DNA of 64,000 nt from Phenylobacterium sp. (GTDB taxonomy: Bacteria; Pseudomonadota; Alphaproteobacteria; Caulobacterales; Caulobacteraceae). Under the pieces are notes generated by a model. The model searched no databases. It had not been told where the DNA came from and saw only the letters and a program-made list of their open reading frames with translations. Positions within the stretch are counted from its first letter, which is position 1. Every line of letters begins with the position of its first letter. The stretch spans positions 89,415 through 153,414 of the forward strand of contig JADBYZ010000012.1 of assembly GCA_020402745.1 (NCBI GenBank), in the 5' to 3' direction. The position numbers and the translations under genes were made by a program. This document shows, one piece after another, positions 48,549-62,200 of this stretch.

Positions 48549-49607
48549 TCACCCGGCGCGAGCGCGCTCACTGAGGTTCGTATCTCCGGCGTCGCTGAAC
48601 ACCACGGCGCTCGCAGAATCCAGCTTCAGGGTTACGGTTTGGCCGTGCGCTGGCGGCGCGGCCCTCCAGCGGACTGTGGCTTCGACGCCCCCGAGGTCCA
48701 GGATCAGCCTGTGGCCGTCGCCCGCGAAGCGGGTCGCCAGCACCCGGACATCTGCGCCCTCCGCGGCGGGCTGCAGGGATTCCGGGCGTATGCCGACGCG
48801 GACCGGCCCATCGCTTACCCCTGGAGCCGAAAGATCGCCCACCGCTGTCCTTACATGGCCTGCGACCGCCTGCCCGGGGATGACCACCATCTCGCCGAGA
48901 AGTCGGGCGGCGACCAGGCTCACGGGCCGCCGGTAGAGGACTTCTGGACCGCCCGTCTGCAGAATTCGCCCCTCTGACATCAGGAAGAGATCGTCGGCGA
49001 TGGCCATCGCCTCCTCAGGGTCATGGGTGACCACCAGCACGGTCGCACCAATCCGCCTCAAATCCTCGAGGAGTGCGTTGCGCACGGTCTCCTTCAGAAC
49101 GCCGTCCAATCCTGAGAAAGGCTCGTCCAGGAGGAGGATGGAGGGAGCCCGCGCGAGGGCTCTGGCGATCGCCACCCTCTGCTGTTCTCCGCCGGACAGG
49201 CTGTGCGGCCATTCGGACGCCAGCTGCGTGATATGAAACTGGTCCAGGAGGCTGAGCACCTGTCGGCGCCGGTCGGCCCGGGACAGGCCGGTCAGACCGA
49301 ATCCGACGTTGTCCTCGACATTCAGATGCGGAAAGAGCGCATTGTCCTGGAAGACCAGGCCCACCCCCCTCGCCTCAGGCGGCAGGGCGCCTTTCGCGGA
49401 GGCGACGAGCTGGCCACCGATCCTGATCTCTCCCTCGTCCGGGTGATCGAGTCCGGCGATCATTCTCAGGAGGGTGCTCTTGCCGCAGCCTGAGGGGCCA
49501 AGGAGGCAGGCGATCCGACCTGGATTCAGCTCAAGGCTGACGGCATCGACCACGGTGCGGGATCCGAAACGGCGGGAGACCTCGAGGAGTTCCAGCAGGG
49601 GGTTCAT
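48549..49607 (-). CDS. fbpC: Ferric iron ABC transporter ATP-binding protein
   Basis: A 352-residue ATPase: Walker A LLGPSGCGKSTLL (residues 36-48), Q-loop LVFQDNALFPHL, signature SLSGGEQQRVAIARAL, Walker B ILLLDEPFSGLD, and the H-loop VTHDPEEAMAI. The C-terminal third is a regulatory TOBE-like domain (VRVGIRPESLQPA). Length and C-domain fit FbpC/PotA-type importers, and the neighbours point to Fe(III). ATG overlaps the permease stop by 4 bp. Symbol given by family context. Confidence 0.9.
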   Translation of the reverse strand: MNPLLELLEVSRRFGSRTVVDAVSLELNPGRIACLLGPSGCGKSTLLRMIAGLDHPDEGEIRIGGQLVASAKGALPPEARGVGLVFQDNALFPHLNVEDNVGFGLTGLSRADRRRQVLSLLDQFHITQLASEWPHSLSGGEQQRVAIARALARAPSILLLDEPFSGLDGVLKETVRNALLEDLRRIGATVLVVTHDPEEAMAIADDLFLMSEGRILQTGGPEVLYRRPVSLVAARLLGEMVVIPGQAVAGHVRTAVGDLSAPGVSDGPVRVGIRPESLQPAAEGADVRVLATRFAGDGHRLILDLGGVEATVRWRAAPPAHGQTVTLKLDSASAVVFSDAGDTNLSERARAG

Positions 49608-51163
49608 GAGAGCCTTTCCCTTCCGGCTGGCGGGGCCGCAGAGGCGATCCGTCCTGTCAGCCAGATCACGGCGGGCAGGGAGAGGAACAGGATCATCAGG
49701 GACGGCGCCCCGGCCTGCCCAAGCCGCTCGTCCAGGGCGTAGTTGTTGGCGATCACCGCCAGGGTGTCGAAGTTGAAGGGCCTCAGGATGAGGGTGGCCG
49801 GAAGCTCCTTCAGGATGTCCACCAACACGATCAGCCCGGCGGTCAGGAGCGAGCCGCCGGCAAGGGGAAGCCGGATCGACAGGGCGCTGGCGACCTCGCT
49901 GCGTCCCAGGGTCCGCGCCGCCTGCGGAAGGGAGGGGCGGATGCGGGTGAGCCCGGCGTCGATGGGCTCCAGGGCGGAGGCCATGAGCCTCGCCGCATAG
50001 GCCAGGATCAGCAGGACCAGGGCCAGGGCCGTTCCCGACCCGGGGAAGAGGCTCCAGATCACCCCTGCAGGGGCGAGGAGGCCGATGGCCATGACGGCGC
50101 CTGGCGTCGCATAGCCCAGGCTGGCCAGCCGCACGAGGCGCGGGCGCCGCTCAGATCCCAGCGCCAGCAGGGTGGCGAGCCCCACCGTCACCAGCGCCCC
50201 GGCGATGGCAAGGCCCAGGCTGTTCCGGGCGGCGATCGCAAGGCGGCTCCAGTCCGGGGACTGCGCCCCCAGGTGCGCCAGCAACCATCCGGCCGGGACC
50301 AGGAGGCCGGCGCAGAGCAGGAAGAGGCAAAAGGCGGCGGCGGCCAGGCCCGGTCCCCGGTCGAGGGGGACCGGTTCCGGGGACCGCCATCGCGTCTTGC
50401 CCGTCTCATGTATGCGGCCCCTCCGGCCCGCCCGTTCGATCCAGAGCAGCACGGCCGCCGCCGCCAGGAGGGGAAGGGCGAACCGGGCGGCGCTGACGGT
50501 CGAGCCATAGACCGACCAGGCCCGGACCACGCCGGTGGTCAGGGTCTGGACGCTGAGGAAGTAAACGGCGCCGTAGTCCGCCAGCGTCTCCATGACGGCC
50601 AGGGCGACACCGGCCCCCAGGGCCGGGCGGGTCAGCGGCAGGGCGACCTTGAAGAAGGCGGCGGCGCTCCCGAGCCCCAGCATCCGGGCGGCGTCCAGGG
50701 CCGAGCCGGGAAGGTTCAGGAAGGCGGCGCGCATGGCGAGGAAGACATAAGGATAGAAGGCCGCCGAAAGGACAAAGACCGCGCCGCCGGGGCTGCGGAT
50801 CTCGAAGGGCAGGTCCTGGCCGGTGAGGTCCCGGATCGCGCTCCTGAGGGGCCCTGCCACATCCAGCAGGTCGGCGTAGCCATAGGCCACGGCGAAGGCG
50901 GGCATGGCCAGGGGCAGGGCGAGGGCCCAGCTGAAGACCGACCTGCCCGGGAACCTGTGCATCACCACCAGCCAGGCCGCCACGGCGCCGGCGACGGCGG
51001 TGAACGCTCCGACCCCCAGGGCCAGGATAGCCGTCGTCGCGGCGTACCTAAGAACATCGGACAGGGGGATCCGTGCGGCGCCTTCGCCGAAGGCCGCCGC
51101 CAGGACACCGGACAGGGGCAGGAGGACCACGGCCGCCGCGCAGGCGGCCAGGACGCCGATCAC
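49604..51163 (-). CDS. fbpB: Ferric iron ABC transporter permease
   Basis: A 519-residue membrane protein with two repeated permease halves, about twelve spans; EAA-type loops are at ALDAARMLGLGSAAAFFKVALP (first half) and LPQAARTLGRSEVASALSIRLP (second half). Fused-double permeases are typical of FbpB/CysTW-like iron systems. The GTG at 51163 is uncertain: the frame is open upstream towards the fbpA stop and reads sensibly (SPRPSFGTPGSR), so the real start may be an alternative codon near 51200. Operon fbpA-fbpB-fbpC. Confidence 0.9.
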   Translation of the reverse strand: MIGVLAACAAAVVLLPLSGVLAAAFGEGAARIPLSDVLRYAATTAILALGVGAFTAVAGAVAAWLVVMHRFPGRSVFSWALALPLAMPAFAVAYGYADLLDVAGPLRSAIRDLTGQDLPFEIRSPGGAVFVLSAAFYPYVFLAMRAAFLNLPGSALDAARMLGLGSAAAFFKVALPLTRPALGAGVALAVMETLADYGAVYFLSVQTLTTGVVRAWSVYGSTVSAARFALPLLAAAAVLLWIERAGRRGRIHETGKTRWRSPEPVPLDRGPGLAAAAFCLFLLCAGLLVPAGWLLAHLGAQSPDWSRLAIAARNSLGLAIAGALVTVGLATLLALGSERRPRLVRLASLGYATPGAVMAIGLLAPAGVIWSLFPGSGTALALVLLILAYAARLMASALEPIDAGLTRIRPSLPQAARTLGRSEVASALSIRLPLAGGSLLTAGLIVLVDILKELPATLILRPFNFDTLAVIANNYALDERLGQAGAPSLMILFLSLPAVIWLTGRIASAAPPAGRERLS

Positions 51164-51198
51164 CCGGGAGCCGGGGGTCCCGAATGAGGGGCGGGGGC

Positions 51199-52224
51199 TC
51201 AGCGCCAGCCCGCCGCGCTCATGATGGACTGGGCCTCCGGTTGGCGGCGGGCGAAAGCCGAGGCGCTCATCGGGTGCGCCTTGAAGCCCGCATAGGCCCG
51301 AACCGACTCCGGCGCCTCCACCTCCGGCGAGACCGGGAACTCGGAGTTATTCGCCGCAATATGGGCCTGGGCCGCCGGAGAGGTCAGGAACTCCATGAGC
51401 TGGACCGCGTTCTCCCGGTTGGGCGAGGCCTTCGCCAGGCCGAGGCCGGCGATGTTCACGTGGGATCCCTGGCCGTCGAGGCTGGGGAAGGCCAGCTTGA
51501 CCTTCTCGGTGACGGCCCGGTCGGCCGCGTCCTCCCCTGACGCCATGCCCAGGTAATAATAGCTGTTGGTGATCGCGACCTCACAGACCCCCGCGGCGAC
51601 GGCGCGGATCTGGTCCCGGTCTCCGCCCTCGGGAGGGCGAGCCATGTTGGCGACGACGCCCTTCGCCCAGGCCTCGGCCTTCTGCGGCCCCCAGGCCTCG
51701 ATCAGGGCGCCCATCAGGGACAGGTTGTAAATGCTGTCCGAGGACCGGACGCAGATCTTGCCGCGGAAGCGCGGGCCCGCCAGCTCGGCATAGTCGTCGA
51801 CCTCCTCGGGCTTCACCTTGGCCGCGTCGTAGGCGACCACTCGCGCCCGTCGGGAGAAGCCGAACCAGGCGCCATCGGGTTCCCGCAGGGCGGCGGGTAT
51901 GCGGGCCTCAAGGGTTTGAGACTTGAGCGGCTGGAAGAGCCCCGCCTCCTGGGCCCTCCACAGCGCTCCGGCATCGGCGGCGATGAAGACGTCGGCGGGG
52001 CTGTTGGCGCCCTCGGCCTTCAGGCGGGCGACCAGCTCGTCGGCCTTGCCCTCGATCCTGTTGACCTTGATCCCCGTCTCCCGGGTGAACTGCTCATAGA
52101 GGGCCAGGTCGCTGTCGTAGTGCCGGGCGGTGTAGACATTCACCACCTTCTCCGCCGGCGGCGGGGCGGAGCAGGCCGCCATGCCAAGAAGGGAGACGGA
52201 GAGGAGTTTCAGGAGGGGTTTCAC
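51199..52224 (-). CDS. fbpA: Ferric iron ABC transporter substrate-binding lipoprotein
   Basis: About 341 residues. GTG at 52224 starts a lipoprotein signal peptide VKPLLKLLSVSLLGMAACSA (lipobox GMAAC). The mature protein is an FbpA/FutA type: VVNVYTARHYDSDLALYEQF, ADVFIAADAGALWRAQEAGLF and ITNSYYYLGMASGEDA, whose clustered Tyr residues commonly bind Fe(III). ATG codons further upstream exist but would extend the signal peptide implausibly. A Fur-like palindrome lies 47 bp upstream, so iron limitation should induce the operon. Confidence 0.9.
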   Translation of the reverse strand: MKPLLKLLSVSLLGMAACSAPPPAEKVVNVYTARHYDSDLALYEQFTRETGIKVNRIEGKADELVARLKAEGANSPADVFIAADAGALWRAQEAGLFQPLKSQTLEARIPAALREPDGAWFGFSRRARVVAYDAAKVKPEEVDDYAELAGPRFRGKICVRSSDSIYNLSLMGALIEAWGPQKAEAWAKGVVANMARPPEGGDRDQIRAVAAGVCEVAITNSYYYLGMASGEDAADRAVTEKVKLAFPSLDGQGSHVNIAGLGLAKASPNRENAVQLMEFLTSPAAQAHIAANNSEFPVSPEVEAPESVRAYAGFKAHPMSASAFARRQPEAQSIMSAAGWR

Positions 52225-52270
52225 GGATTGAGCCTTTCGGACGGCGGCGAGGTTCGGCGAGCAACTTGTT

Positions 52271-52287
52271 TTGAGAAGCATTCGCAA
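52271..52287 (-). promoter_or_regulatory. Fur-box-like palindrome upstream of fbpA
   Basis: On the minus strand TTGCGAA TGC TTCTCAA: two 7-base arms around 3 bases, 6 of 7 positions complementary. It resembles the TTGAGAATGATTCTCAA-type Fur site and is placed where a promoter for fbpA would be. Confidence 0.6.
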
Positions 52288-52376: not shown

Positions 52377-53915
52377 CTAATCGAAGTCCAGGGCCAGCTG
52401 GGCGCTGTCCGTGGGCTTGGCCCGGCCTCGCCGCCTGTCGCCCGCCCCGGGCAAGCCGGACTTGCGGCTTCCGTGCTTGGTGGCGATGAGCCGGGCGGCG
52501 CCCTTGTGGCCGCTGTCCCGGCGCAGGGTGTGAAGGGTCTCGCGGGCCACGCGCATGGCCCCCGCGTTGTCGACGACCGGGGCGGGATAGTCGAGACCGG
52601 TCGCCCCCTCCCAGCGCCAGGGCTCCTGGAGGAAGGCGTCGGGGACGGCGGCGAGTTCAGGAACCCAGGCCCGGACGAAGGCGCCGTCAGGATCCTGGTC
52701 GTGACCCTGCTTCACGGGGTTGTAGATCCGCAGCGTATTGATGCCCGTCGTGCCGGACTGCATCTGCACCTGCGGCCAATGGATCCCCGCCTCATAGTCC
52801 ACGAACTTCCGCGCCAGGTGCAGGCCGCTTTCCCGCCAGGGAAGCCAGAGTTGGTAGCTGGCGAAGGACATCAGCATGGCGCGCATGCGGAAGTTGATCC
52901 AGCCATGGGCGTCCAGCGCCCGCATGCAGGCGTCGAGGAAGGGATAGCCGGTCAGGCCCCGGCTCCAGGCCTCCAGGCGGTCCGGATCGGCCTCGCAGGG
53001 GCGCACGCCGTCGTAGGCCCGGTGGAGGTTCTCGAACTCGATCCGCGGCTCGTCCTCCAGCTTCTGGACGAAGTGGCAGCGCCAGTGCTGGCGTCCCGAG
53101 AAGGAGGCCAGGGACCCCCGCCACCGTCCGGCGTCGGGAGCGGCCGACATCCGGAGCTCGCGCTGGCGCGCCCAGGTCGCCTGGGCGACCTCCCGCATGG
53201 AGATCGTCCCCCAGGTGAGGTGGGGCGAGAGCCGCGAACTGGAGCCATAGGCCGTGACCGGGCTCGACATCTCCCGGCGATAGTCGCGGCCGCGACCGGA
53301 CAGGAAGCTCTCCAGCACCTCCAGCGCGGCGGCGCGTCCGCCTGCCTGGCGATGGGGGCAGGGATCGGGCGCCAGGCCGAGCTCGCCCGCCGACGGAAGC
53401 TGCGCCGGCCAGTCTCCGCCAAGGGGAACAAGCCCTTCGGGCGGCGGCGTCGTCGGCCTGGCCATGTCCCGGTCCCAGGCCTGGGCCCAGCCGTTCCTGG
53501 ACTTCAGGCGGCGGATCACGCCGAACTGGCGTTCCTCTCGCCAGGGAAGGCCCGCCGCCTTCGCCCAGGCGCTGACGGCGAGGTCCCGGGCGTAGGTCCA
53601 GCCGTTCCCGGTTTCCTCGTGGCTCCAGAGGCCGGCGACGCCATGGCGCTCATGGATGCGGCCCAGCACCTTCACAGCCTCCCCGACCTCGACGCACAGG
53701 GGCTGGCCCAGCCGGGCCAGCGAAACGGCGAGTTCCTCGAGGCACTCCGCGGCGAAGGCCCACTGCCTTCCGGACGCGTCCCGCTGGGCCCAGAGCCCGG
53801 GCTCGACGATGTAGAGGGGAAGCACCGGCCCTGCGGCGGCGGCCAGGGCGAGGGGGCGGTGGTCGACGATGCGCAGGTCGCGCTTGAACCAGACCACCTG
53901 CAGGGGACGCCTCAC
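52377..53915 (-). CDS. Photolyase/cryptochrome family protein A
   Basis: A 512-residue flavoprotein with the usual order: an N-terminal alpha/beta antenna domain (MRRPLQVVWFKRDLRIVDHR) and a C-terminal FAD domain (SRLSPHLTWGTISMREVAQA, TGYPFLDACMRALDAHGWIN, then FRMRAMLMSFASYQLWLPW). Where classical photolyases have DADLASNTLGWQW, this protein reads DYEAGIHWPQVQMQSGTTGIN, an atypical active-site loop, so it may be a cryptochrome-like or divergent photolyase. The tail is basic (RDSGHKGAARLIATKHGSRK). ATG overlaps the upstream photolyase-like gene B by 4 bp; both lie downstream of selA. Confidence 0.88.
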   Translation of the reverse strand: MRRPLQVVWFKRDLRIVDHRPLALAAAAGPVLPLYIVEPGLWAQRDASGRQWAFAAECLEELAVSLARLGQPLCVEVGEAVKVLGRIHERHGVAGLWSHEETGNGWTYARDLAVSAWAKAAGLPWREERQFGVIRRLKSRNGWAQAWDRDMARPTTPPPEGLVPLGGDWPAQLPSAGELGLAPDPCPHRQAGGRAAALEVLESFLSGRGRDYRREMSSPVTAYGSSSRLSPHLTWGTISMREVAQATWARQRELRMSAAPDAGRWRGSLASFSGRQHWRCHFVQKLEDEPRIEFENLHRAYDGVRPCEADPDRLEAWSRGLTGYPFLDACMRALDAHGWINFRMRAMLMSFASYQLWLPWRESGLHLARKFVDYEAGIHWPQVQMQSGTTGINTLRIYNPVKQGHDQDPDGAFVRAWVPELAAVPDAFLQEPWRWEGATGLDYPAPVVDNAGAMRVARETLHTLRRDSGHKGAARLIATKHGSRKSGLPGAGDRRRGRAKPTDSAQLALDFD

Positions 53916-55111
53916 CGGGACCTCCCTTGGTCCAGCAAGGCCGGGATCTGTTTGCGGAAGGCGAAGAAGCCTGCCGTCGCATGGGGCCAGAAGCGGGAGT
54001 CCCAGTCCCGGCGGACCTGGATGAGCCGAAGGCCCTCGGCCTCAAGCGCCTGCGCGGCCTGCGCCAGGGCGTCCGCCGTGGGGCCAATGGGGGCGAAGGG
54101 GGTGACAAGGGTCCGCACCTGCGCCGCCCGGGCTGCGGCGACCAAGGCGTCGGAGTCGAGGCTGTCCATGAGGGTCACCGGCCCCTCCATCCGCCCCGCC
54201 AGGCGGTCGGCGGCGTCCCCTGCCGCGCCGGCCGCGAACCGGGCGGAGGCCTCGCCAAGGGAGAGGCGGGGATCCGCTGTGACGATCGCCGCGGCTGCGG
54301 CCGCAGGGTCGATCCCGCCAAGGTCGGGGGCCAGGTCCTCCGGCGTCGCCAGCAGCAGGAAGGGTCCAGGAGGCGGGGCGTCGGCGGCTGGCGGCAGGGT
54401 GGCTGGGGGTTCCGGCAACGCCTCCGCCAGGGCAGGGGCCTCCGTCGCCAGGCCGTTGGGGGCGAAGCGGCCGCCGGTGAAGCGGGCGATGTTCTCCCGG
54501 GTCGCCAGGTAGGTCTTCCCCGGGGTCTGCAGGCCCGCCACCCAACGCCAGGACAGGGTGTTGCTGGCCGGGTCGGCGTCGATAAGCTGGCGCAGGAAGA
54601 GATCCGCTCCCAGGGCCCAGGGCAGGCGCAGGGTGAAGATCCAGATCGAGGCGAACCACATGCGCGCGTGGTTGTGGAGGTAGCCGGTCCGGGCGAGTTC
54701 GTGGGCCCAGTCGTCGAAGCCCTCTATGCCCGTACGGCCCGCCTCGGCGTCGGCGAGGGCCTGCTCGTCAACCCCGCCGCCCCGCTGGCGGTCGCGGGTC
54801 TCCAGGAACCGGGACCAGACGGAAGGCCGCATTTCCAGCCAGCCCTTCCAGTAGGTGCGCCAAAGCACCTCCTGGATGAACTTGTCCGCGCCGGCGATCC
54901 CGTGGGTCTGCAGGACCTCATCGACCACCTCGGCTTCCGTGATCACCCGGTGGCGCAGGTAGGGGGAGAGCCGTGAGACGGCGCCGGGTTCGCCAGGTCC
55001 CGGGTCCAGGTTGCGGCCCTCTGCATAGGCGCGCCCCGCCGCCGGGACAAAGCCGGCAAGGCGCTCAAGGGCGGCCTGGCGGGTCGGCGGGAACATCCCG
55101 GGTTCTGGCAC
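53912..55111 (-). CDS. Photolyase-related FAD protein B with the FAD domain first
   Basis: A 399-residue protein that opens with photolyase FAD-domain sequence: AVSRLSPYLRHRVITEAEVV near residue 45, FIQEVLWRTYWKGWLEMRP, GYLHNHARMWFASIWIFTLRL and DADPASNTLSWRWVAGLQTP, ending in TYLATRENI. No antenna domain precedes it. Instead, after a Pro/Ala linker, residues about 230-399 look alpha/beta (FLLLATPEDLAPDLGG, LMDSLDSDALVAAARAAQVR) and end RRDWDSRFWPHATAGFFAFR, which is like the end of an antenna domain. This suggests a circular permutation of the photolyase order. Photorepair or light sensing is inferred. ATG at 55111, 74 bp after selA. Confidence 0.82.
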   Translation of the reverse strand: MPEPGMFPPTRQAALERLAGFVPAAGRAYAEGRNLDPGPGEPGAVSRLSPYLRHRVITEAEVVDEVLQTHGIAGADKFIQEVLWRTYWKGWLEMRPSVWSRFLETRDRQRGGGVDEQALADAEAGRTGIEGFDDWAHELARTGYLHNHARMWFASIWIFTLRLPWALGADLFLRQLIDADPASNTLSWRWVAGLQTPGKTYLATRENIARFTGGRFAPNGLATEAPALAEALPEPPATLPPAADAPPPGPFLLLATPEDLAPDLGGIDPAAAAAAIVTADPRLSLGEASARFAAGAAGDAADRLAGRMEGPVTLMDSLDSDALVAAARAAQVRTLVTPFAPIGPTADALAQAAQALEAEGLRLIQVRRDWDSRFWPHATAGFFAFRKQIPALLDQGRSR

Positions 55112-55185: not shown

Positions 55186-56646
55186 TCAGGCGAGGGAAGG
55201 GGGCGCCTTCGGATGACGTCGCGGCACGCCGCCGATTTCTCCCGCCGCCGCGCCGATCGCCTCGGCCAGGGCCGGGACCTCGGCGTCCCCGACGGTCCGC
55301 ATCTCGAGGAGCACCCGGTCCTGTTCGATACGGCCCAGCACGCGGGTCGGGCCGGTGCGCAGGCGCAGGGCCAGGTCCTCGGCGCTGAGGCGCTCGCTCG
55401 ACAGGGCCAGGGCGCGGCCCGGCAGGGGACGCATGGGCAGGGCCCCGCCGCCGGCGAAGCCCTCGGTTGCGATGACCTCGGCGGAAAGCCCTGTCAGGCC
55501 TTCGATCCGCGCAAGCAGGTCCTGGGCGCGGGCGTCTAGGGCCTCGGCGTCCTGGGCCAGGCTCTGCAGGACGGGGATCCGGGCGAAGGGGTCCGAGGGC
55601 GGGCGGTAGAGCCGCAGGGTGGCCGCCAGGGCCGCCGCCGACAGCTTGTCCAGCCTGAGCGCCCGGGCCAGCGGGTGGCCCTCCAGCCGGTCCACCAGGG
55701 CCTTGCGCCCGGCGGCCAGGCCCGCCTGCGGACCCCCCAGCAGCTTGTCGCCGCTGAAGATCACCAGGTCGGAGCCCGCCTTGAGGCTGGACTGCACCGT
55801 CGGCTCGTCGGCCATGCCGAAGGGCGAGAGGTCGACGAGGGCGCCGCCGCCCAGGTCCTCGATCAGCAGGAGGCCATGGGCGTGGGCGAAGTGGGCCAGG
55901 CTCTCGAGGGACGGGGCGCTGGTGAAGCCCGAGATCCGGAAATTGCTGGGATGGGTCCGCAGGATGACCCGGGCGTCCGGATATTCGGCTAAGGCCCTCT
56001 CATAGTCCCGCAGGTGGGTGCGGTTGGTGGTTCCCACCTCGACCAGGCGTGAGCCGCTTTGGGCCACCACGTCGGGGATGCGGAAGCCGCCGCCGATCTC
56101 GACCAGCTCGCCGCGCGAGACGATGACCGGCGCTCCCTCCGCCAGGGCGGCCAGAGCCAGCAGGACCGCGCCGGCGCAGTTGTTGACCGCCAGCCCCGCC
56201 TCGGCGCCCGTCCGCTCAGCGATCAGGGGGGCCAGATGCGCCTGCCGCGACGACCGCCGGCCGGTGTCCAGGTCCATCTCCAGGTTGGCGTAGCCGGCGA
56301 CGGCCTGGATCGCCGCCACCGCCTCCGGCGCCAGGGGCGCCCGCCCGAGGTTGGTGTGGATCACCACGCCCGTGGCGTTGATCACCGGGAACAGGGTTTC
56401 GCGGACGCCTTCGGACAGGCGAGCTTCGGCCGCATGCAGGAGGTCGGCGACGGTGGGAAGTGAGTGGGGGTCGGCGGCCAGCCGCATCCGGGCCTCAGCC
56501 AGGACCGACCTCACCGCAGCGGTCAGGGCCGCGCCGCCGAACCGGGCCTTCGACGCCGCCGCGTCGGGAGCCTCGCAGACGACACCCACCGCCGGTAGTC
56601 GACGCCGGGGATCCTCTTGCGCGGCCTTGGGGGACTTCAGGGTCAC
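55186..56646 (-). CDS. selA: L-seryl-tRNA(Sec) selenium transferase
   Basis: A 486-residue PLP enzyme converting Ser-tRNA(Sec) to Sec-tRNA(Sec) with selenophosphate. Family markers: FPVINATGVVIHTNLGRAPL, AGYANLEMDLDTGRRSSRQ, the PLP Lys in FSGDKLLGGPQAGLAAG (near residue 299) and RTHPSNFRISGF. Length fits E. coli SelA (463) plus a short N-terminal extension. GTG at 56646 chosen because the frame upstream has no other good start and the conserved region begins soon after. It is divergent from selB across 127 bp and followed by the photolyase genes. Confidence 0.95.
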   Translation of the reverse strand: MTLKSPKAAQEDPRRRLPAVGVVCEAPDAAASKARFGGAALTAAVRSVLAEARMRLAADPHSLPTVADLLHAAEARLSEGVRETLFPVINATGVVIHTNLGRAPLAPEAVAAIQAVAGYANLEMDLDTGRRSSRQAHLAPLIAERTGAEAGLAVNNCAGAVLLALAALAEGAPVIVSRGELVEIGGGFRIPDVVAQSGSRLVEVGTTNRTHLRDYERALAEYPDARVILRTHPSNFRISGFTSAPSLESLAHFAHAHGLLLIEDLGGGALVDLSPFGMADEPTVQSSLKAGSDLVIFSGDKLLGGPQAGLAAGRKALVDRLEGHPLARALRLDKLSAAALAATLRLYRPPSDPFARIPVLQSLAQDAEALDARAQDLLARIEGLTGLSAEVIATEGFAGGGALPMRPLPGRALALSSERLSAEDLALRLRTGPTRVLGRIEQDRVLLEMRTVGDAEVPALAEAIGAAAGEIGGVPRRHPKAPPSLA

Positions 56647-56773: not shown

Positions 56774-58699
56774 GTGACCGGCGCCCCGCCTCCGCCCCTT
56801 GGCCTGGCGGTGATCGGCCATGTCAACCACGGCAAGACGGCCCTGGTCCGGGCCCTGACCGGCATGGAGACCGACCGCCTGCCGGAGGAGAAGGCGAGGG
56901 GGATGTCCATCGCCCTGGGCTTCGCCTTCCACGAGGATCCCACTGGTGACATCGACTTCCTGGACGCCCCGGGCCACGAGGACTTCCTCCGCGCCATGGT
57001 CATGGGAACGGCGGGCGCCCGGGCGGCCCTGCTGGTGGTCTCCGCCGTCGAGAGCTTCGCTCGCCAGACCCGCGAGCACCTGCAGATCGCCGGCCTCCTG
57101 GGCCTCAGGGTCGGCCTGGTGGCGGTGACCAAGGCCGACCTGGTCCCGCCGGACGCCCGCCCGGCCCTCGAGACTCGCCTGCGAAGGGAGCTCGAGACCA
57201 GCTTCCTGGCCTCGGCGCCCCTCGTCTTCTGCTCGGCCTTCACCGGCGAGGGGCTGGAGGCCCTCCACGGCGGGATCCGGGCCCTGGCCGCCCAGGCCCC
57301 GCCGCCCGAGCCCCTGCCGGGGGTCTTCCTGCCCCTCGACCGGGTGTTCAGCCTGGCGGGCGCCGGGACCGTCGTCACCGGCTCCCTGCAGGGTGCGGCC
57401 CTTCATGCGGGTGATGAGGGGGTGCTGGAGCCCTCGGGCCGCCGGGTGCATGTGCGTCAGCTCCAGGTCCACGGCCGGCCGGCAGCCTCGGCCCCGGCCG
57501 GTGGCCGGGTGGCGGCGGCCCTGCGCGGCGTGTCGCCGGACGAGGTCCGGGCAGGAGAGGTCCTCTGTACGCCCGGGGTCTTCCCGGCTTCCGCTCGCAT
57601 CGACATCGCCCTGACCCTCTCGCCGGACGCCCTGCGCCCCCTCCGCTCGGGGGACGAGGTCCGGGTCCTCTGGGGCGCCCGGCAGGACATCGCCCGCATC
57701 CGCCTGATCGGAGACGCCCCCCTGGCGCCCGGGTCGGAGGGACTGGCCCAGCTCCGTCTGGCGGCGCCCGCGCCGGTCCACGCCGGCCTGCGCCTCCTCC
57801 TGCGTCGTCCCTCGCCCGCCGCCACCCTGGGCGGAGGCCGGGTGCTGGACCCGGTGGCTCCCGAGCTGAGGGCCCGGACCCTGGAGGCGCGCCGGGGGCT
57901 CCTGGCGGCGGCCCTCGCCGGGGACATCGACGAGATCGCCGCAGGCCTGGTGGGACGGGACGGCGGCGCGGTGTCCCTCGCCGAGACGGCCCGCCTCGCC
58001 CGGCGGCCGCCGGCGGAGGTCGAGGCCGCGCTGGCCCGGTCCCTCATTCGCCTGGACGATGGCGTCTTCGCCCCCGAGTCCGCCCTGGCGGCGGCGAGGC
58101 AGGCCTATCTGGACCGGCTGGCCGAGGCGCACGGCCGCCGGCCCTTGAGGGCCTTCGTCCCCCTGGCCGCCTTCCGGAACGGACTTTCGCGCACGCTTGC
58201 CCCCGCGCTGATCGCCTGGGCCGAGGGACGACTGGCCGACGCAGGGAAGATCCGCCTGGAGCGCGGCCGGATCGCCCTTACGGGACATGACCCCTTCGCC
58301 ACCCTCTCCGCCGACCAGCTGTCCCGGCTGGCCGGGATCGAGTCCGACTTCCGGGATGGAGGCCTGAGCCCGCCGGACCCTTCCGCCTTCGAGGCGGACC
58401 TAATGGAGCTCCTCCTGGCGTCCGGTCGGCTGGTCGCCCTGCGCAACCACGCCCTGCGCCAGACCCTCATCTTCCACCTCGACGCCCTGGAAGCGGCGGT
58501 CGCGGCGCTGCATGAGGCCTTCCCCCCGCCGACGGAGTTCACGACAGGCGAGGCCCGGGCGGCCCTGTCCACCTCCCGCAAGTTCATCGTCCCGGCCCTG
58601 GAGTTCCTGGACTCCCGGGGCGATACGACCCGCCGGGGCGACGTCCGGCAGGTCGCGGCGCCAAGAAACCGCTTCGGTCCCGCGCCGGTCCCGCACTAG
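56774..58699 (+). CDS. selB: Selenocysteine-specific elongation factor SelB
   Basis: A 641-residue GTPase that carries Sec-tRNA(Sec) to UGA codons marked by a SECIS hairpin. G1 is GHVNHGKTALVRALTG (residues about 14-29), G3 DAPGHEDFLRAM, G4 TKADLV; then EF-Tu-like domains 2 and 3 with FSLAGAGTVVTGSLQGAAL, and C-terminal winged helices that bind SECIS RNA (last 170 residues; LEFLDSRGDTTRRGDVRQ). GTG at 56774 directly precedes the first strand. The gene ends 12 bp before tRNA-Sec, so both are likely one transcription unit. Confidence 0.95.
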   Translation: MTGAPPPPLGLAVIGHVNHGKTALVRALTGMETDRLPEEKARGMSIALGFAFHEDPTGDIDFLDAPGHEDFLRAMVMGTAGARAALLVVSAVESFARQTREHLQIAGLLGLRVGLVAVTKADLVPPDARPALETRLRRELETSFLASAPLVFCSAFTGEGLEALHGGIRALAAQAPPPEPLPGVFLPLDRVFSLAGAGTVVTGSLQGAALHAGDEGVLEPSGRRVHVRQLQVHGRPAASAPAGGRVAAALRGVSPDEVRAGEVLCTPGVFPASARIDIALTLSPDALRPLRSGDEVRVLWGARQDIARIRLIGDAPLAPGSEGLAQLRLAAPAPVHAGLRLLLRRPSPAATLGGGRVLDPVAPELRARTLEARRGLLAAALAGDIDEIAAGLVGRDGGAVSLAETARLARRPPAEVEAALARSLIRLDDGVFAPESALAAARQAYLDRLAEAHGRRPLRAFVPLAAFRNGLSRTLAPALIAWAEGRLADAGKIRLERGRIALTGHDPFATLSADQLSRLAGIESDFRDGGLSPPDPSAFEADLMELLLASGRLVALRNHALRQTLIFHLDALEAAVAALHEAFPPPTEFTTGEARAALSTSRKFIVPALEFLDSRGDTTRRGDVRQVAAPRNRFGPAPVPH

Positions 58700-58711: not shown

Positions 58712-58806
58712 GGAGGTGACTGGAGTCTGGTGGCTTCCCCGGTCTTCAAAACCGGTGACACGTCTTTGAGGCGTGTGGTGGGTTCGATTCCCATCCACCT
58801 CCGCCA
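58712..58806 (+). tRNA. selC: tRNA-Sec (anticodon UCA)
   Basis: A 95-base tRNA including encoded CCA. Anticodon stem CCGGT/ACCGG with loop CTTCAAA puts TCA at 58746-58748. The extra arm ACACG..CGTGT is long, as in tRNA-Sec, the T arm reads GTGGGTTCGATTCCCAT, and the acceptor GGAGGTG pairs with CACCTCC. The length and long variable arm exclude an ordinary suppressor tRNA. Position 8 of the acceptor (A against C) is an oddity worth checking. Confidence 0.95.
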
Positions 58807-58845: not shown

Positions 58846-60432
58846 ATGAGCCCGACCCCGCCTGCCTTCACCCTCCAGGACCTGGAGGGGACCCCGCGCA
58901 GCTATCCCACGGGCCGTCCCAGCCTGGTCGTCTTCGCCAAGGAGGACTGCGCCACCTGCAACCTCGTCGCCCCCCTGCTTGAGGCCTTCCACACGGCCTG
59001 GGGCGACAGGGCCGATGTCTGGATGGTGGCCCAGGCCCGGGACGGCGCCGAGATCCTGCGCGACCGGCACGGCCTCACCCTGCCCATCCTGGACGACGGC
59101 GCCCTGCGCACCTCCCTGGCCTGGGACTTCGAGAGCGTGCCGGCGGTCTTCTGGACGAGCGCCGACGGGTCGGCGGCGCCGGGGATGGAGGGCTTCGTCA
59201 AGGCCGAGTGGGAGGCCCTCGCCCAAAGCATCACTTCGGCCCTCGGCGGCTCCGGGCCTGAGATCGCCTGGGCCGAGCTGCCGGACTGGCGCCCGGGCTG
59301 CGGCTCCAAGCACCTGGACCCCGACATCCACGACCGCCTGGTCGCCGAGGCCGAGGGCAGCCCCATCCGCGCCCGACGGATCGAGATCGCCGCCTCCGAC
59401 GACATCGACGAGTTCCTGTTTGACCAGGGCTTCAGCGACGGCCTGCCCCTGGTCCCGCCGACCCCGGAGCGGGTGATCCGCATGCTGGCGGGCACGACCC
59501 GCGACCCCCAGGACGTCGTCGCCATCGTGCCGCCGAACCTGGCGCCCGCCACGGTGGAGAAGGTCGCCATCAACGCCGTGATGGCCGGCTGCCGGCCGGA
59601 ATACCTGCCCGTGGTCATCGCCGCCCTGGAGGCGGTCTGCACCGACGAGTTCAACATCCATGGGGTCAACGCCACCACCATGGGCGCCTCGCCCGTCCTG
59701 GTGGTCAACGGCCCGATCCGGCACCGGATCGGCATGAACATGAAGCTGGGCGCCCTGGGGACCGGCAACCGCGCCAACGCCACCATCGGCCGGGCGGTGC
59801 GGCTCATCATCCGCAACCTCGGCGGCGCAAGGCCGGGCGGCGTGGACCGGTCCACCCTGTCCAACCCCATGAAGTTCACCATGTGCTTCGCCGAGTGGGA
59901 GGAGGGCTCGCCCTGGGATCCCCTGCACGTGGAGCGAGGCTTTGCGCCCGAGGACTCGGTGGTCACCGCCTTCGCCATGACCAGCGGGCCGGTCCAGATC
60001 GTCGACCAGGAATCCCGCCGCCCGGACCAGATCGCCGGGACCCTGGGCCTGGGGCTGGAGGGCATGTTCCTGCCCAAGATCCGGCGCATGCCGGTGGACG
60101 CCCTGCTGGTCGTCTGTCCCGAGCACATCAACACCCTGATGGTGGACGGCGACTATCCCAAGGACCGGCTGCGGGCGCGGATCCAGGAGGTCACCGCCCG
60201 GCCCCTGCGGGAGATGGTGTCGAACGACATCTCCGGCGCGGGCATCCCCGTCACCTCCGCCGCGCGCATGACGCCCGAGATGCTGGACACCCCCACGCCC
60301 AAGTTCGCTGACGGCAAGTACATCCACATCGTCGTGGCCGGGTCGGAGGCGGGCAAGTTCTCGGCCGCCTTCCACGGCTGGGTCACCGGGGCCATGGGCT
60401 CAACGGTCGTTTCCAGGAAGATCGACTGCTGA
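58846..60432 (+). CDS. Thioredoxin-domain protein with large conserved domain, partner of the UGSC protein
   Basis: A 528-residue protein from ATG 58846 (AGAGGA upstream; ATG 58819 is less likely). Residues about 10-130 are a thioredoxin/TlpA-like fold with the redox pair in KEDCATCNLVAPLLEAFH (Cys35, Cys38). From about residue 185 follows a domain whose DQGFSDGLPLVPPTPERVIR, VEKVAINAVMAGCRPEYLP and GPIRHRIGMNMKLGALGTGN I associate with neighbours of UGSC proteins; it has no known activity. The C-terminus is SRKIDC followed by TGA TAG. It lies between tRNA-Sec and the selenoprotein, probably in one operon. A cytoplasmic thiol-redox role is inferred. Confidence 0.82.
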   Translation: MSPTPPAFTLQDLEGTPRSYPTGRPSLVVFAKEDCATCNLVAPLLEAFHTAWGDRADVWMVAQARDGAEILRDRHGLTLPILDDGALRTSLAWDFESVPAVFWTSADGSAAPGMEGFVKAEWEALAQSITSALGGSGPEIAWAELPDWRPGCGSKHLDPDIHDRLVAEAEGSPIRARRIEIAASDDIDEFLFDQGFSDGLPLVPPTPERVIRMLAGTTRDPQDVVAIVPPNLAPATVEKVAINAVMAGCRPEYLPVVIAALEAVCTDEFNIHGVNATTMGASPVLVVNGPIRHRIGMNMKLGALGTGNRANATIGRAVRLIIRNLGGARPGGVDRSTLSNPMKFTMCFAEWEEGSPWDPLHVERGFAPEDSVVTAFAMTSGPVQIVDQESRRPDQIAGTLGLGLEGMFLPKIRRMPVDALLVVCPEHINTLMVDGDYPKDRLRARIQEVTARPLREMVSNDISGAGIPVTSAARMTPEMLDTPTPKFADGKYIHIVVAGSEAGKFSAAFHGWVTGAMGSTVVSRKIDC

Positions 60433-60463: not shown

Positions 60464-60982
60464 ATGACCACCATCCTGGATCCGACCGACGAGCGCGTGC
60501 CCGTCGCCCGTCAGATCACCCCGCGAACGGGAAAAATCGAGGGGGTGATCGGCCTCCTCGACATCAGCAAGCCCCGGGGCAACGTGCTCCTCGACGAGCT
60601 GGAGCGCCTGCTGGCCGACCGCTTCCCGGACAACGAGATCCGGCGCTACGCCAAGCCGACCTTCACCAAGCCCTGTCCTTCGGACCTGCGGCTGAAGATC
60701 AAGTCGGAATGCAGCGTCCTGGTGGAAGCCCTCGCCGATTGAGGATCATGCACGACGTGCAGTCTGCACGACACTGTATGGTTCGAGATCCAGGGGCTCC
60801 CCGCCGTCTCCATCGCCTCGAGCGAGTTCGCCGAGGCCGCCGAGGTCCAGCGCAAGGCGCTGGGCATGGAGGGCGCGCGCTACCTGCTGGTCGATCACCC
60901 GATCCAGGACGCCAACGACGAGGAAATGCGCGAGAAGGCCCGGGAGGTCTTCGAAGCGGTCGTCGCGGCGATCACGACCTGA
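60464..60982 (+). CDS. Selenoprotein of the UGSC family (in-frame UGA read as Sec93)
   Basis: ATG 60464 follows GGAGG by 6 bp. The frame meets TGA at 60740-60742 but continues in the same phase to TGA at 60980-60982, giving 172 residues with Sec93. Around it the protein reads ECSVLVEALAD-U-GSCTTCSLHD, i.e. Sec-Gly-Ser-Cys plus a third thiol, then FEIQGLPAVSIASSEFAEAA and a helical end, all ordinary coding sequence. Such UGSC proteins are known mainly from sequence surveys, and their function is unknown; a thiol or selenol redox centre is inferred. A SECIS-like hairpin follows the UGA, and selA, selB, selC are adjacent. A gene caller would report only the 92-residue front part. Confidence 0.92.
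60756..60770 (+). promoter_or_regulatory. Bacterial SECIS-like hairpin for Sec93
   Basis: CGTGCA (60756-60761), loop GTC (60762-60764), TGCACG (60765-60770): a perfect 6-bp stem inside the coding sequence. The loop begins with G, 19 bases after the UGA, inside the spacing known for bacterial SECIS elements, and has the expected GU in the loop. An overlapping alternative stem at 60749-60761 is nearer to the UGA and less suitable. Confidence 0.75.
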
Positions 60983-61008: not shown

Positions 61009-61075
61009 TACGGTGACACTGTATGAAATCCCGGTCCTGTGCGACTGAGTGCCGTCACCCGAGGGAGCTCCACTG

Positions 61076-61315
61076 ATGGCCAGACTTGCGCGCGTCGTTG
61101 TCCCAGGCCTGCCGCACCGCGTCACCCGGAGAGGCGATCATCGGGAGCCGGTCTTCGTCAATGACGCCGCCGGCGCCGCCGATCTCGCCCTGATCGGCAA
61201 GGTCGCCAGGGCCTCGGACGCCGAGATTCGGGCCTGGCGCCTCATGCCGAGCCCTGTTCACAAGTCGGAGCCATCGAAGAATCCGCGACGCTTCATAAAG
61301 CCTGGCTCAACTTAG
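61076..61315 (+). pseudogene. Truncated REP-associated tyrosine transposase (RAYT)
   Basis: The start MARLARVVVPGLPHRVTRRG followed by DHREPVFVND is the unmistakable opening of IS200-like RAYT transposases. The metal-binding motif, normally LMPNHVH, reads LMPSPVH here, and after this the similarity stops: the frame ends after 79 residues instead of more than 200, without the catalytic Tyr helix. The sequence 61011-61058 before it has the palindromic look of the REP region that such genes carry. The break at about 61260 coincides with the beginning of the acquired dehalogenase block. Confidence 0.85.
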
Positions 61316-62200
61316 CCCAAACGCCTTGAGCGCGGCTTTGGCAACCGGCTCGCCCCATTCCTGGACGAAATGACCGGCCTCTTTGAGAACCATGGGTTCG
61401 GGGCAATTGCGTATATCGGCGCGCAGCGCGTGCATGATCTCGGGAACCAAGACAGGATCGGCCGCGCCAATCGCCATGAAGGTCTGGCCCGCCCAATGAT
61501 CGCGGTACCAGTCGCGGCCGGCACGGCCATGGTCGGCGCCGGGCGAGTCGGGCGCGACGGGCATCAATTCAGGAAAGCGGCGGACGCCGGCCTTGTAGCG
61601 AATATCGGGGAAGGGCGCGCCATACGCATCCGCCTCGGCCTCGGACAGTACGGGGGTGCCGCGTCTGAACAGCGCCGACACGTTCAAATCGGGCTGTGAT
61701 CGGACAAAGGCCTTCCAGTTCTCAAATCCTGCGCCCAACGACTTTTCACCGGTTGGAAAAGCCGTGTTCATGACGATCAATCTCGCGAAACGACGGGGCA
61801 TCTGATATGGAATGGTCATGCCGAGCAAGCCGCCCCAATCCTGACAGACCAGAGTGATGTTGGTAAGATCAAGCGTATCGATCAGCTCGATCAATGAACT
61901 TCGGTGGAATTCAAACGTGTATACGTCATCCTGGACCGGCTTGTCAGATCGGCCGAAACCGAACAGATCGGGCGCGATTACGCGGCCATGGGGCGCAAAG
62001 AGCGGGATCATCTTGCGGTAAAGATACGACCAACTAGGCTGTCCATGCAGGCAGAGGAACACCGGCGCGGCGGGGTCCCGCAGTCCCTCATCAAGATAAT
62101 GCATCCGCAGACCGTTCTTCTGGACCAGATAACGCGGCGCAAAAGGGTAACCAGGTAAGTTGTCGAATCTTTCGTCGGGTGCGCGCACGAACTCAATCAT
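61307..62200 (-). CDS. Haloalkane dehalogenase (DhlA-like)
   Basis: A 297-residue alpha/beta hydrolase that would cut carbon-halogen bonds by water. Oxyanion segment LCLHGQPSWSYLYRKMIPLF, nucleophile Asp in VCQDWGGLLG (residue 121) with the halide-binding Trp next to it, acid candidate in IGAADPVLVPE, and base His in EAGHFVQEWG (about 277). Asp in place of Ser as nucleophile separates it from esterases; DhlA-type layout with a lid domain between. The HGQP instead of HGEP/HGNP residue may affect halide binding. Last gene of the TetR-SDR-GST-dehalogenase set; ATG at 62200. Confidence 0.9.
   Translation of the reverse strand: MIEFVRAPDERFDNLPGYPFAPRYLVQKNGLRMHYLDEGLRDPAAPVFLCLHGQPSWSYLYRKMIPLFAPHGRVIAPDLFGFGRSDKPVQDDVYTFEFHRSSLIELIDTLDLTNITLVCQDWGGLLGMTIPYQMPRRFARLIVMNTAFPTGEKSLGAGFENWKAFVRSQPDLNVSALFRRGTPVLSEAEADAYGAPFPDIRYKAGVRRFPELMPVAPDSPGADHGRAGRDWYRDHWAGQTFMAIGAADPVLVPEIMHALRADIRNCPEPMVLKEAGHFVQEWGEPVAKAALKAFGLS

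Follow-up and report, generated by a model that had tools for sequence, protein, structure and literature searches.

The gene at the centre of this work lies at 60464..60982 on the plus strand of the 64,000-nucleotide stretch of DNA that was analysed (the window) and encodes a UGSC family protein of 172 residues, with selenocysteine (Sec) predicted at residue 93. It was delineated by translation of the frame, by Pfam and NCBIfam matches and by 80 homologous loci. As the original prediction had described, the frame opens at ATG 60464, runs for 92 residues up to an in-frame TGA (60740..60742, plus strand) and continues through 79 more sense codons, beginning with GSCTTCSLHD, to a final TGA at 60980-60982. 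Mechanical ORF calling stops it at 92 residues. Reading the internal TGA as Sec yields U93 of the UGSC motif, a reading consistent with the conservation of the TGA and with Sec or Cys in distant members.

The same prediction placed selA, selB and tRNA-Sec next to this gene, and all three were recovered. The tRNA-Sec gene (selC, anticodon UCA) is at 58712..58806 on the plus strand (Rfam RF01852, 78.2 bits), preceded on the same strand by selB, the selenocysteine-specific elongation factor (56774..58699; TIGR00475, 257.2 bits against a cut-off of 242.25). On the minus strand, selA, coding for L-seryl-tRNA(Sec) selenium transferase, occupies 55186..56646 with an approximate start (TIGR00474, 505.9 bits against a cut-off of 267.9). 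Between tRNA-Sec and the UGSC gene, a plus-strand partner gene (58867..60432) encodes an N-terminal thioredoxin-like domain with the motif CATC, followed by a second domain, here called PC (about 59359-60432), as delimited by profile comparison and by the homologous loci.

Two family models recognise the UGSC protein. Pfam UGSC (PF24696) matches at 163.4 bits against a cut-off of 25, over positions 1-171 of 172, and the NCBIfam model NF041046, 'UGSC family (seleno)protein', which is able to name this protein, matches at 168.6 bits against a cut-off of 125, over positions 4-146 of 147. The TGA at codon 93 supplies the first position of [U/C]-G-S-C. The window protein is a member of an already known family and an ordinary one, with no trait found that sets it apart from other UGSC members. 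The original prediction spoke of a candidate for a new redox enzyme; the family itself is not new, having been in print since 2008. The Global Ocean Sampling selenoproteome contained 255 Sec and 21 Cys members of it, and it ranked fifth by number among the selenoprotein families in the part of the 2008 table considered (PMC2398784). The available text of a 2026 review calls nearly all computationally identified selenoproteins, UGSC listed among them, functionally largely uncharacterised (PMC13188914); PMC9312934, PMC1088965 and PMC8124441 were also drawn on in part. Family models, TGA conservation, the hairpin described below and the literature support the view of a UGSC-type selenoprotein of uncharacterised function.

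Conservation of the UGA codon and a SECIS-like hairpin

We compared the window gene with the best 80 of at least 462 relatives in the genome collection, giving 81 sequences with the window itself. TGA stands at codon 93 in 80 of these 80 loci, and 79-81 sense codons stay open behind it in every one. Mean identity to the window protein in the same best 80 is 75.3% before the UGA and 77.2% after it; differences after the UGA number 0.139, 0.120 and 0.431 at codon positions 1, 2 and 3, so that third positions dominate. A lack of conservation beyond the UGA had been named as grounds for rejecting the prediction, and over these 80 relatives both frame and identity persist. Support, in turn, was expected from homologues whose residue 93 is either Sec or Cys: in the loci read, the TGA was confirmed at the Sec position in 45 distinct Sec rows, beside 3 distinct Cys rows.

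Across 44 divergent UGSC members, the only invariant residues are 93, 94, 96 and 122. The idea of a centre made of Sec and two nearby Cys stands in part: all 44 members retain Cys96, but C99 is not conserved in the family, being replaced by Trp, Gly, Ala or other residues in some paralogues.

Just 3' of the UGA, within the coding sequence, lies a SECIS-like apical hairpin, CGUGCA-GUC-UGCACG (60756..60770, plus strand), at 14-28 bases past the UGA with 13 bases between. All six pairs (CGUGCA-GUN-UGCACG) are kept in 81 of 81 sequences (the window and the best 80 of 462 relatives); in this set the second pair is GC in 76, AU in 4 and GU in 1, and Ser100, which falls in the loop, is encoded by AGT in 81 of 81. 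Elsewhere in the same genes AGT accounts for 117 of the 2598 serine codons counted (4.5%). For distant paralogues we dropped duplicates (L094, L127, L135, L137 and L142) and repeated downstream DNA; in other counts L094, L127 and L135 were removed beforehand. At the same place, at least five of the six pairs form in 40 of 45 distinct Sec sequences and all six in 29, and none of 3 Cys-form sequences has five or more. In five of 50 sequences, TGG (Trp) replaces the second Cys codon and the facing strand of the stem has changed along with it (C-G to G-C); the RNA pair is thereby preserved although the amino acid differs.

Over 50 divergent Sec sequences, 92.7% of cells are paired, a value reached in 0 of 500 shuffles; two of the five measures in this test were reached by 28-29 of the 500. 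Folding energies are mixed among homologues. The window fold (60737-60790) has a z of -3.44, and among 54-base folds of eight sequences, three (the window, L007 and L061) fall below -3 and the other five range from -1.14 to +0.38. RNAalifold predicted zero consensus pairs for the alignment of 50 divergent sequences, and of the 14 pairs in the window's lower stem, 7 are intact in all 81 sequences (the window and the best 80 of 462) and four in 35 to 42 of them. Sequence comparison gives good support to the apical hairpin; because of the RNAalifold result, the mixed z values and the partial conservation of the lower stem, it gives none to a longer stem.

The decoding genes are complete. A selD gene outside the examined part of the window, at G000:C22:31558-32484 in the same genome (409.1 bits, over cut-off), has no internal stop in its frame, and selA, selB, selC and selD are all present. 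A genome without selD had been named as a refutation, and it fails because selD is there. The genome has one UGSC copy and 0 matches to PF07355, a search in which the control was silent. Formate dehydrogenase alpha was rejected as a second Sec client, its two matches both being below cut-off, with a 678-residue open frame without a stop. With FdhA, PF07355, SelD and further UGSC copies as the scope, this genome may have UGSC as its sole Sec client.

A true stop, or an error in the sequence, would mean that a 92-residue protein is made, as mechanical ORF calling has it. This is extremely improbable given a TGA and downstream frame kept throughout the best 80 of 462 relatives, a conserved hairpin with its fixed AGT codon, and Sec machinery next door. 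By these comparisons the UGA at 60740 is almost certainly decoded as Sec.

The partner protein, its spread and its neighbours

The thioredoxin-domain neighbour noted in the original prediction proved to be a thioredoxin-like domain fused to PC. An alternative start at ATG 58819 is thought less likely than 58867 because a purine-rich stretch, judged by eye, precedes the latter. In the PDB the N-terminus finds YkuV, ResA and thioredoxins by profile, at best with E 5e-8; of 138 matches, the 60 listed all lie within profile positions 1-134. PC, the C-terminal domain of about 350 residues, gave nothing better than E 0.04 when 37 members were searched against Pfam and NCBIfam, and 0 matches in the PDB. 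A kinship of PC itself with GrdB/PrdB found no support (hhalign against PF07355, E 0.28). PF09338 (PrdA/GrdE) matched 0 of 37 PC members and 0 of 190 class genomes, the control being silent in the latter search; against 44 UGSC members it gave one match at chance level (E 0.071). The 37 divergent PC members share 14 invariant columns, which include Cys, Arg, Asn and Glu; the invariant Cys is C258 counted from ATG 58819.

Among the best 80 of 462 loci, 77 have PC upstream of UGSC, and the three misses (L022, L025 and L031) start at a contig edge. In the same 80, edge-truncated loci included, 75 have the thioredoxin domain, 70 have selB and 66 selA; a cluster with a fused oxidoreductase-SelD occurs in 21, and one such fusion, scanned in a context locus, exceeds the SelD cut-off. 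Among 54 further UGSC places (overlapping stretches included), 52 have PC on the same strand within the stretch covered; L112 and L139 do not, and in L113 the PC match is weak and 0.9 kb away. When class genomes were searched with a profile built from PC beside UGSC, scoring 6 candidates per genome, PC was found in 36 of 362 (E up to 1e-10), and 36 of 36 are UGSC-positive. The UGSC loci of the remaining two UGSC-positive genomes, G801 and G804 (L145 and L113), show PC matches, and both genomes were probably left out of the 362-genome draw. We consider it likely that UGSC and PC act together. The 'Unknown_1' domain fused to UGSC in the 2008 paper could be PC (PMC2398784). Two tandem PC matches on the same strand were seen in L093, L132, L133, L136, L141, L143, L144 and L146, perhaps a heteromeric partner.

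We searched for the UGSC family in genomes drawn from the class Alphaproteobacteria, from the phylum and from among close relatives. PF24696 is found in 38 of 385 Alphaproteobacteria genomes, with 97 matches, of which 92 contain one in-frame TGA and five none; one of these five is partial (profile positions 2-77) and ends before the Sec site. It is found in 7 of 397 genomes drawn from the phylum, 6 of them over cut-off, and in 7 of 60 relatives, all of them from the window's own genus, which accounts for 36 of the 60 with the window's genome counted. Gain and loss are suggested because the distribution is patchy, and transfer has perhaps contributed. Eight UGSC matches were found in one genome, eight also being the most that this search scored in most genomes. 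Between five and eight matches each, nearly all with an in-frame TGA, were seen in G640, G545, G647, G657, G804, G727 and G798; in G640 and G545 the neighbourhood differs between the copies.

Two candidates were set aside as members. L092 has a weak PF24696 match (E 7.9e-4, below cut-off) in a frame without the UGSC motif, which we take to resemble FtsZ. L090, with the overlapping L094, was rejected as a Sec member, being a Cys form with its TGA elsewhere in the gene; this minus-strand copy has the in-frame TGA where its relative L089 has Trp, and gene decay or an error in the sequence may account for it. The alignments held 48 partner rows (A1: 47 non-redundant of 71 partner frames, and the window), 49 rows (A2), 33 rows (A3), 44 UGSC rows (A4), 37 PC rows (A5) and 50 rows (A7).

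For gene neighbourhoods we picked 6 genomes by hand and read 20 context loci in them; in two of these loci the contig ends less than 2 kb from UGSC. A thioredoxin reductase-like cluster appears in 4 of the 20, and the three members scanned match TIGR01292 below cut-off. Other neighbours include a TAXI-type TRAP solute-binding protein over cut-off and, below cut-off, a caprolactamase-like subunit and a sulfomuconolactone hydrolase-like amidohydrolase. With the others named by eye, these surroundings look catabolic, with no single substrate indicated.

In the window itself, two adjacent cryptochrome/photolyase-family genes overlap by four bases on the minus strand (52377-53915 and 53912-55111), both with partial, below-cut-off model matches. 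An ABC transporter set (ATPase, permease and solute-binding protein; 48549-52287, minus strand) is nearest to 2-aminoethylphosphonate-type systems, below cut-off in the families shown. Beyond the UGSC gene, a short plus-strand ORF (61049-61315) resembles, by eye, a REP-associated transposase remnant; a haloalkane dehalogenase-like alpha/beta hydrolase on the minus strand (61307-62200; PRK00870, 336.9 bits, over cut-off) adjoins GST-like and SDR genes.

Many UxxC Sec proteins are peroxiredoxin-like (PMC13188914), and UGSC might on that ground be a stress or peroxide reductase instead of a catabolic enzyme. This has a slim chance of being correct: up to eight matches per genome in differing, catabolic-looking neighbourhoods fit substrate diversification better, and peroxiredoxin models are absent from the Pfam and NCBIfam matches of the 44 UGSC members. 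Paralogue expansion and these catabolic-looking neighbourhoods suggest that separate UGSC copies act on different small metabolites.

Similarity of UGSC to the GrdB/PrdB selenoproteins

An NCBIfam scan of the 44 UGSC members (E up to 10) placed five selenoprotein B models directly after the family's own. TIGR01917 (GrdB) matches 16 of the 44, with a best E of 2e-4, followed by NF040794 (GrdF) with 10, and TIGR04483 (PrdB), NF040795 (GrdH) and TIGR01918 with 7 each; no selenoprotein B model exceeds 16 of 44. Of ten members picked by hand, each has a match with E of 1 or less to one or more of these models. The matches fall in the C-terminal part of the profiles, for example 330-399 of 431 in the GrdB type and 120-189 of 238 in PrdB; the matched part of GrdB is, we assume, the one that bears Sec.

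We then aligned the UGSC profile (A4) with 30 alphaproteobacterial PF07355 proteins (A6), of which 25 have TGA and 5 Cys at U-P-x-C; they came from 32 loci, two of which (L147 and L164) were left out as the motif pattern had no match. The hhalign comparison gave E 3.5e-5 and a probability of 71.6%, with the Sec columns aligned. It scored 38.6; the best of 60 column-shuffled controls reached 20.1, the reversed alignment 15.1 and a thioredoxin alignment 16.0, and a score of 27.8 is left after removal of seven motif columns. The similarity of UGSC to GrdB/PrdB selenoprotein B in the Sec region exceeds chance.

Single-protein matches are far weaker. Among ten members the best reaches 20.4 bits against a cut-off of 602.2; in the Pfam-A scan PF07355 is matched by 0 of 44 UGSC members, and the unrelated model MR_MLE_C is matched by 3 of the 44, with E down to 0.0047. 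The window's own protein matches UGSC_fam alone in NCBIfam and no selenoprotein B model. UGSC is probably a stand-alone protein distantly homologous to the Sec region of GrdB/PrdB. As judged from these profiles it would be a remote relative and not a member of that family, because single matches are weak and far below cut-offs and PF07355 is unmatched.

GrdB, GrdF and GrdH (TIGR01917, NF040794, NF040795 and PF07355) and PrdB (TIGR04483) have, like UGSC, Sec in U-x-x-C followed by G-[IL]-[PA]. Glycine and D-proline reductases resemble the UGSC system in having a partner protein and, for glycine reductase, a supply of thioredoxin (PMC13188914, PMC9908766). UGSC, at about 172 residues, has no counterpart to most of the 431 positions of the GrdB model, and its hosts here are Alphaproteobacteria, whereas the reductases described are from clostridia and Eubacterium acidaminophilum (PMC9908766). 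The available parts of the UGSC literature do not make the GrdB/PrdB link or name a PC-like partner.

PF07355-like selenoproteins occur in the same class and also have an in-frame TGA, but they are longer, carry U-P-x-C and form a family separate from UGSC. They are found in 43 of 385 class genomes and 2 of 200 phylum genomes. PrdB-like examples were seen in L148-L176 (such as L149:733-2001, minus strand), with TGA at the site in 25 of 30 read, and they are probably the proteins named PrdB in metagenome papers. In a few loci such a gene is the next one after UGSC: it lies directly 3' of UGSC in L064 and L071 (2 of the best 80 of 462) and also in G782, probably the very genome from which L064 comes.

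A UxxC motif is typical of thioredoxin-fold thiol oxidoreductases, and UGSC might be one of these, merely passing electrons or repairing oxidised thiols. A thioredoxin-like fold was indeed guessed for UGSC in the 2008 metagenome paper (PMC2398784). Profile comparison did not bear it out: hhalign of UGSC against the thioredoxin alignment of the neighbouring domain (one alignment) gave the score of 16.0 cited above, with E 0.089 and within the shuffled range, against 38.6 for the GrdB/PrdB set, and PDB searches with two UGSC profiles returned 0 thioredoxins. Profile similarity to this one alignment does not support a thioredoxin fold, and we regard the oxidoreductase reading as quite unlikely.

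A proposed two-component selenol reductase

With modest confidence, we favour a reading in which UGSC and PC would form a two-component, thioredoxin-recycled selenol reductase, related to GrdB/PrdB and acting on a small metabolite. The adjacent selA-selB-tRNA-Sec set would decode the UGA at 60740, with the hairpin at 60756-60770 recruiting SelB. UGSC would then be one half of the enzyme and PC, encoded just upstream, the other, the two presumably in a complex. PC would bind or activate the substrate, and the U93 selenolate would attack it, breaking or, as we suppose, reducing a bond. Cys96 and U93 of UGSC would next form a selenenylsulfide, which the CATC domain fused to PC would re-reduce; other clusters have a separate thioredoxin reductase-like enzyme beside UGSC and PC, which may join this step.

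Glycine and D-proline reductases combine a Sec protein (GrdB or PrdB) with a pyruvoyl-bearing partner (GrdE or PrdA), and both partners have been examined with hydrazine probes (PMC9908766). By analogy, UGSC may provide the selenolate U93 and the resolving thiol C96, PC may hold the substrate and the thioredoxin domain may act as reductant. The Sec codon, the SECIS-like hairpin, the PC partnership, the thioredoxin fusion and the similarity to GrdB/PrdB are the steps that the sequences support; complex formation, reduction and substrate binding by PC are those that we infer.

UGSC-PC could instead be a non-redox enzyme, for example a lyase or isomerase, in which Sec serves only as a strong nucleophile. 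PC does have invariant residues of its own, such as the Cys, Arg, Asn and Glu noted above in 37 members, and the neighbouring genes encode enzymes of many kinds, but Cys96 is retained in every one of the 44 UGSC members, and both the thioredoxin fusion and the thioredoxin reductase-like neighbours point to redox turnover. We consider a non-redox enzyme unlikely. For reductive chemistry with thioredoxin recycling, the chemical core of the two-component reductase that we favour, we put the chances at about even.

A broader view, which we offer tentatively, is that UGSC and PC may constitute an unrecognised class of two-component selenoenzymes: an alphaproteobacterial offshoot of GrdB/PrdB with a new partner family, which would amount to about eight substrate-specific reductases in some genomes and would travel in some lineages as a compact cassette (selA, selB, tRNA-Sec, Trx-PC, UGSC and sometimes selD). 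Membership of the UGSC family is in itself ordinary; what this analysis adds is the probable GrdB/PrdB link and the PC partner. A link to a studied selenoenzyme family, a partner and a built-in electron donor make the function of UGSC testable. If the proposal is true, Stickland-type selenol chemistry would exist in Alphaproteobacteria, beyond the clostridia, and may cover metabolites not yet assigned to it.
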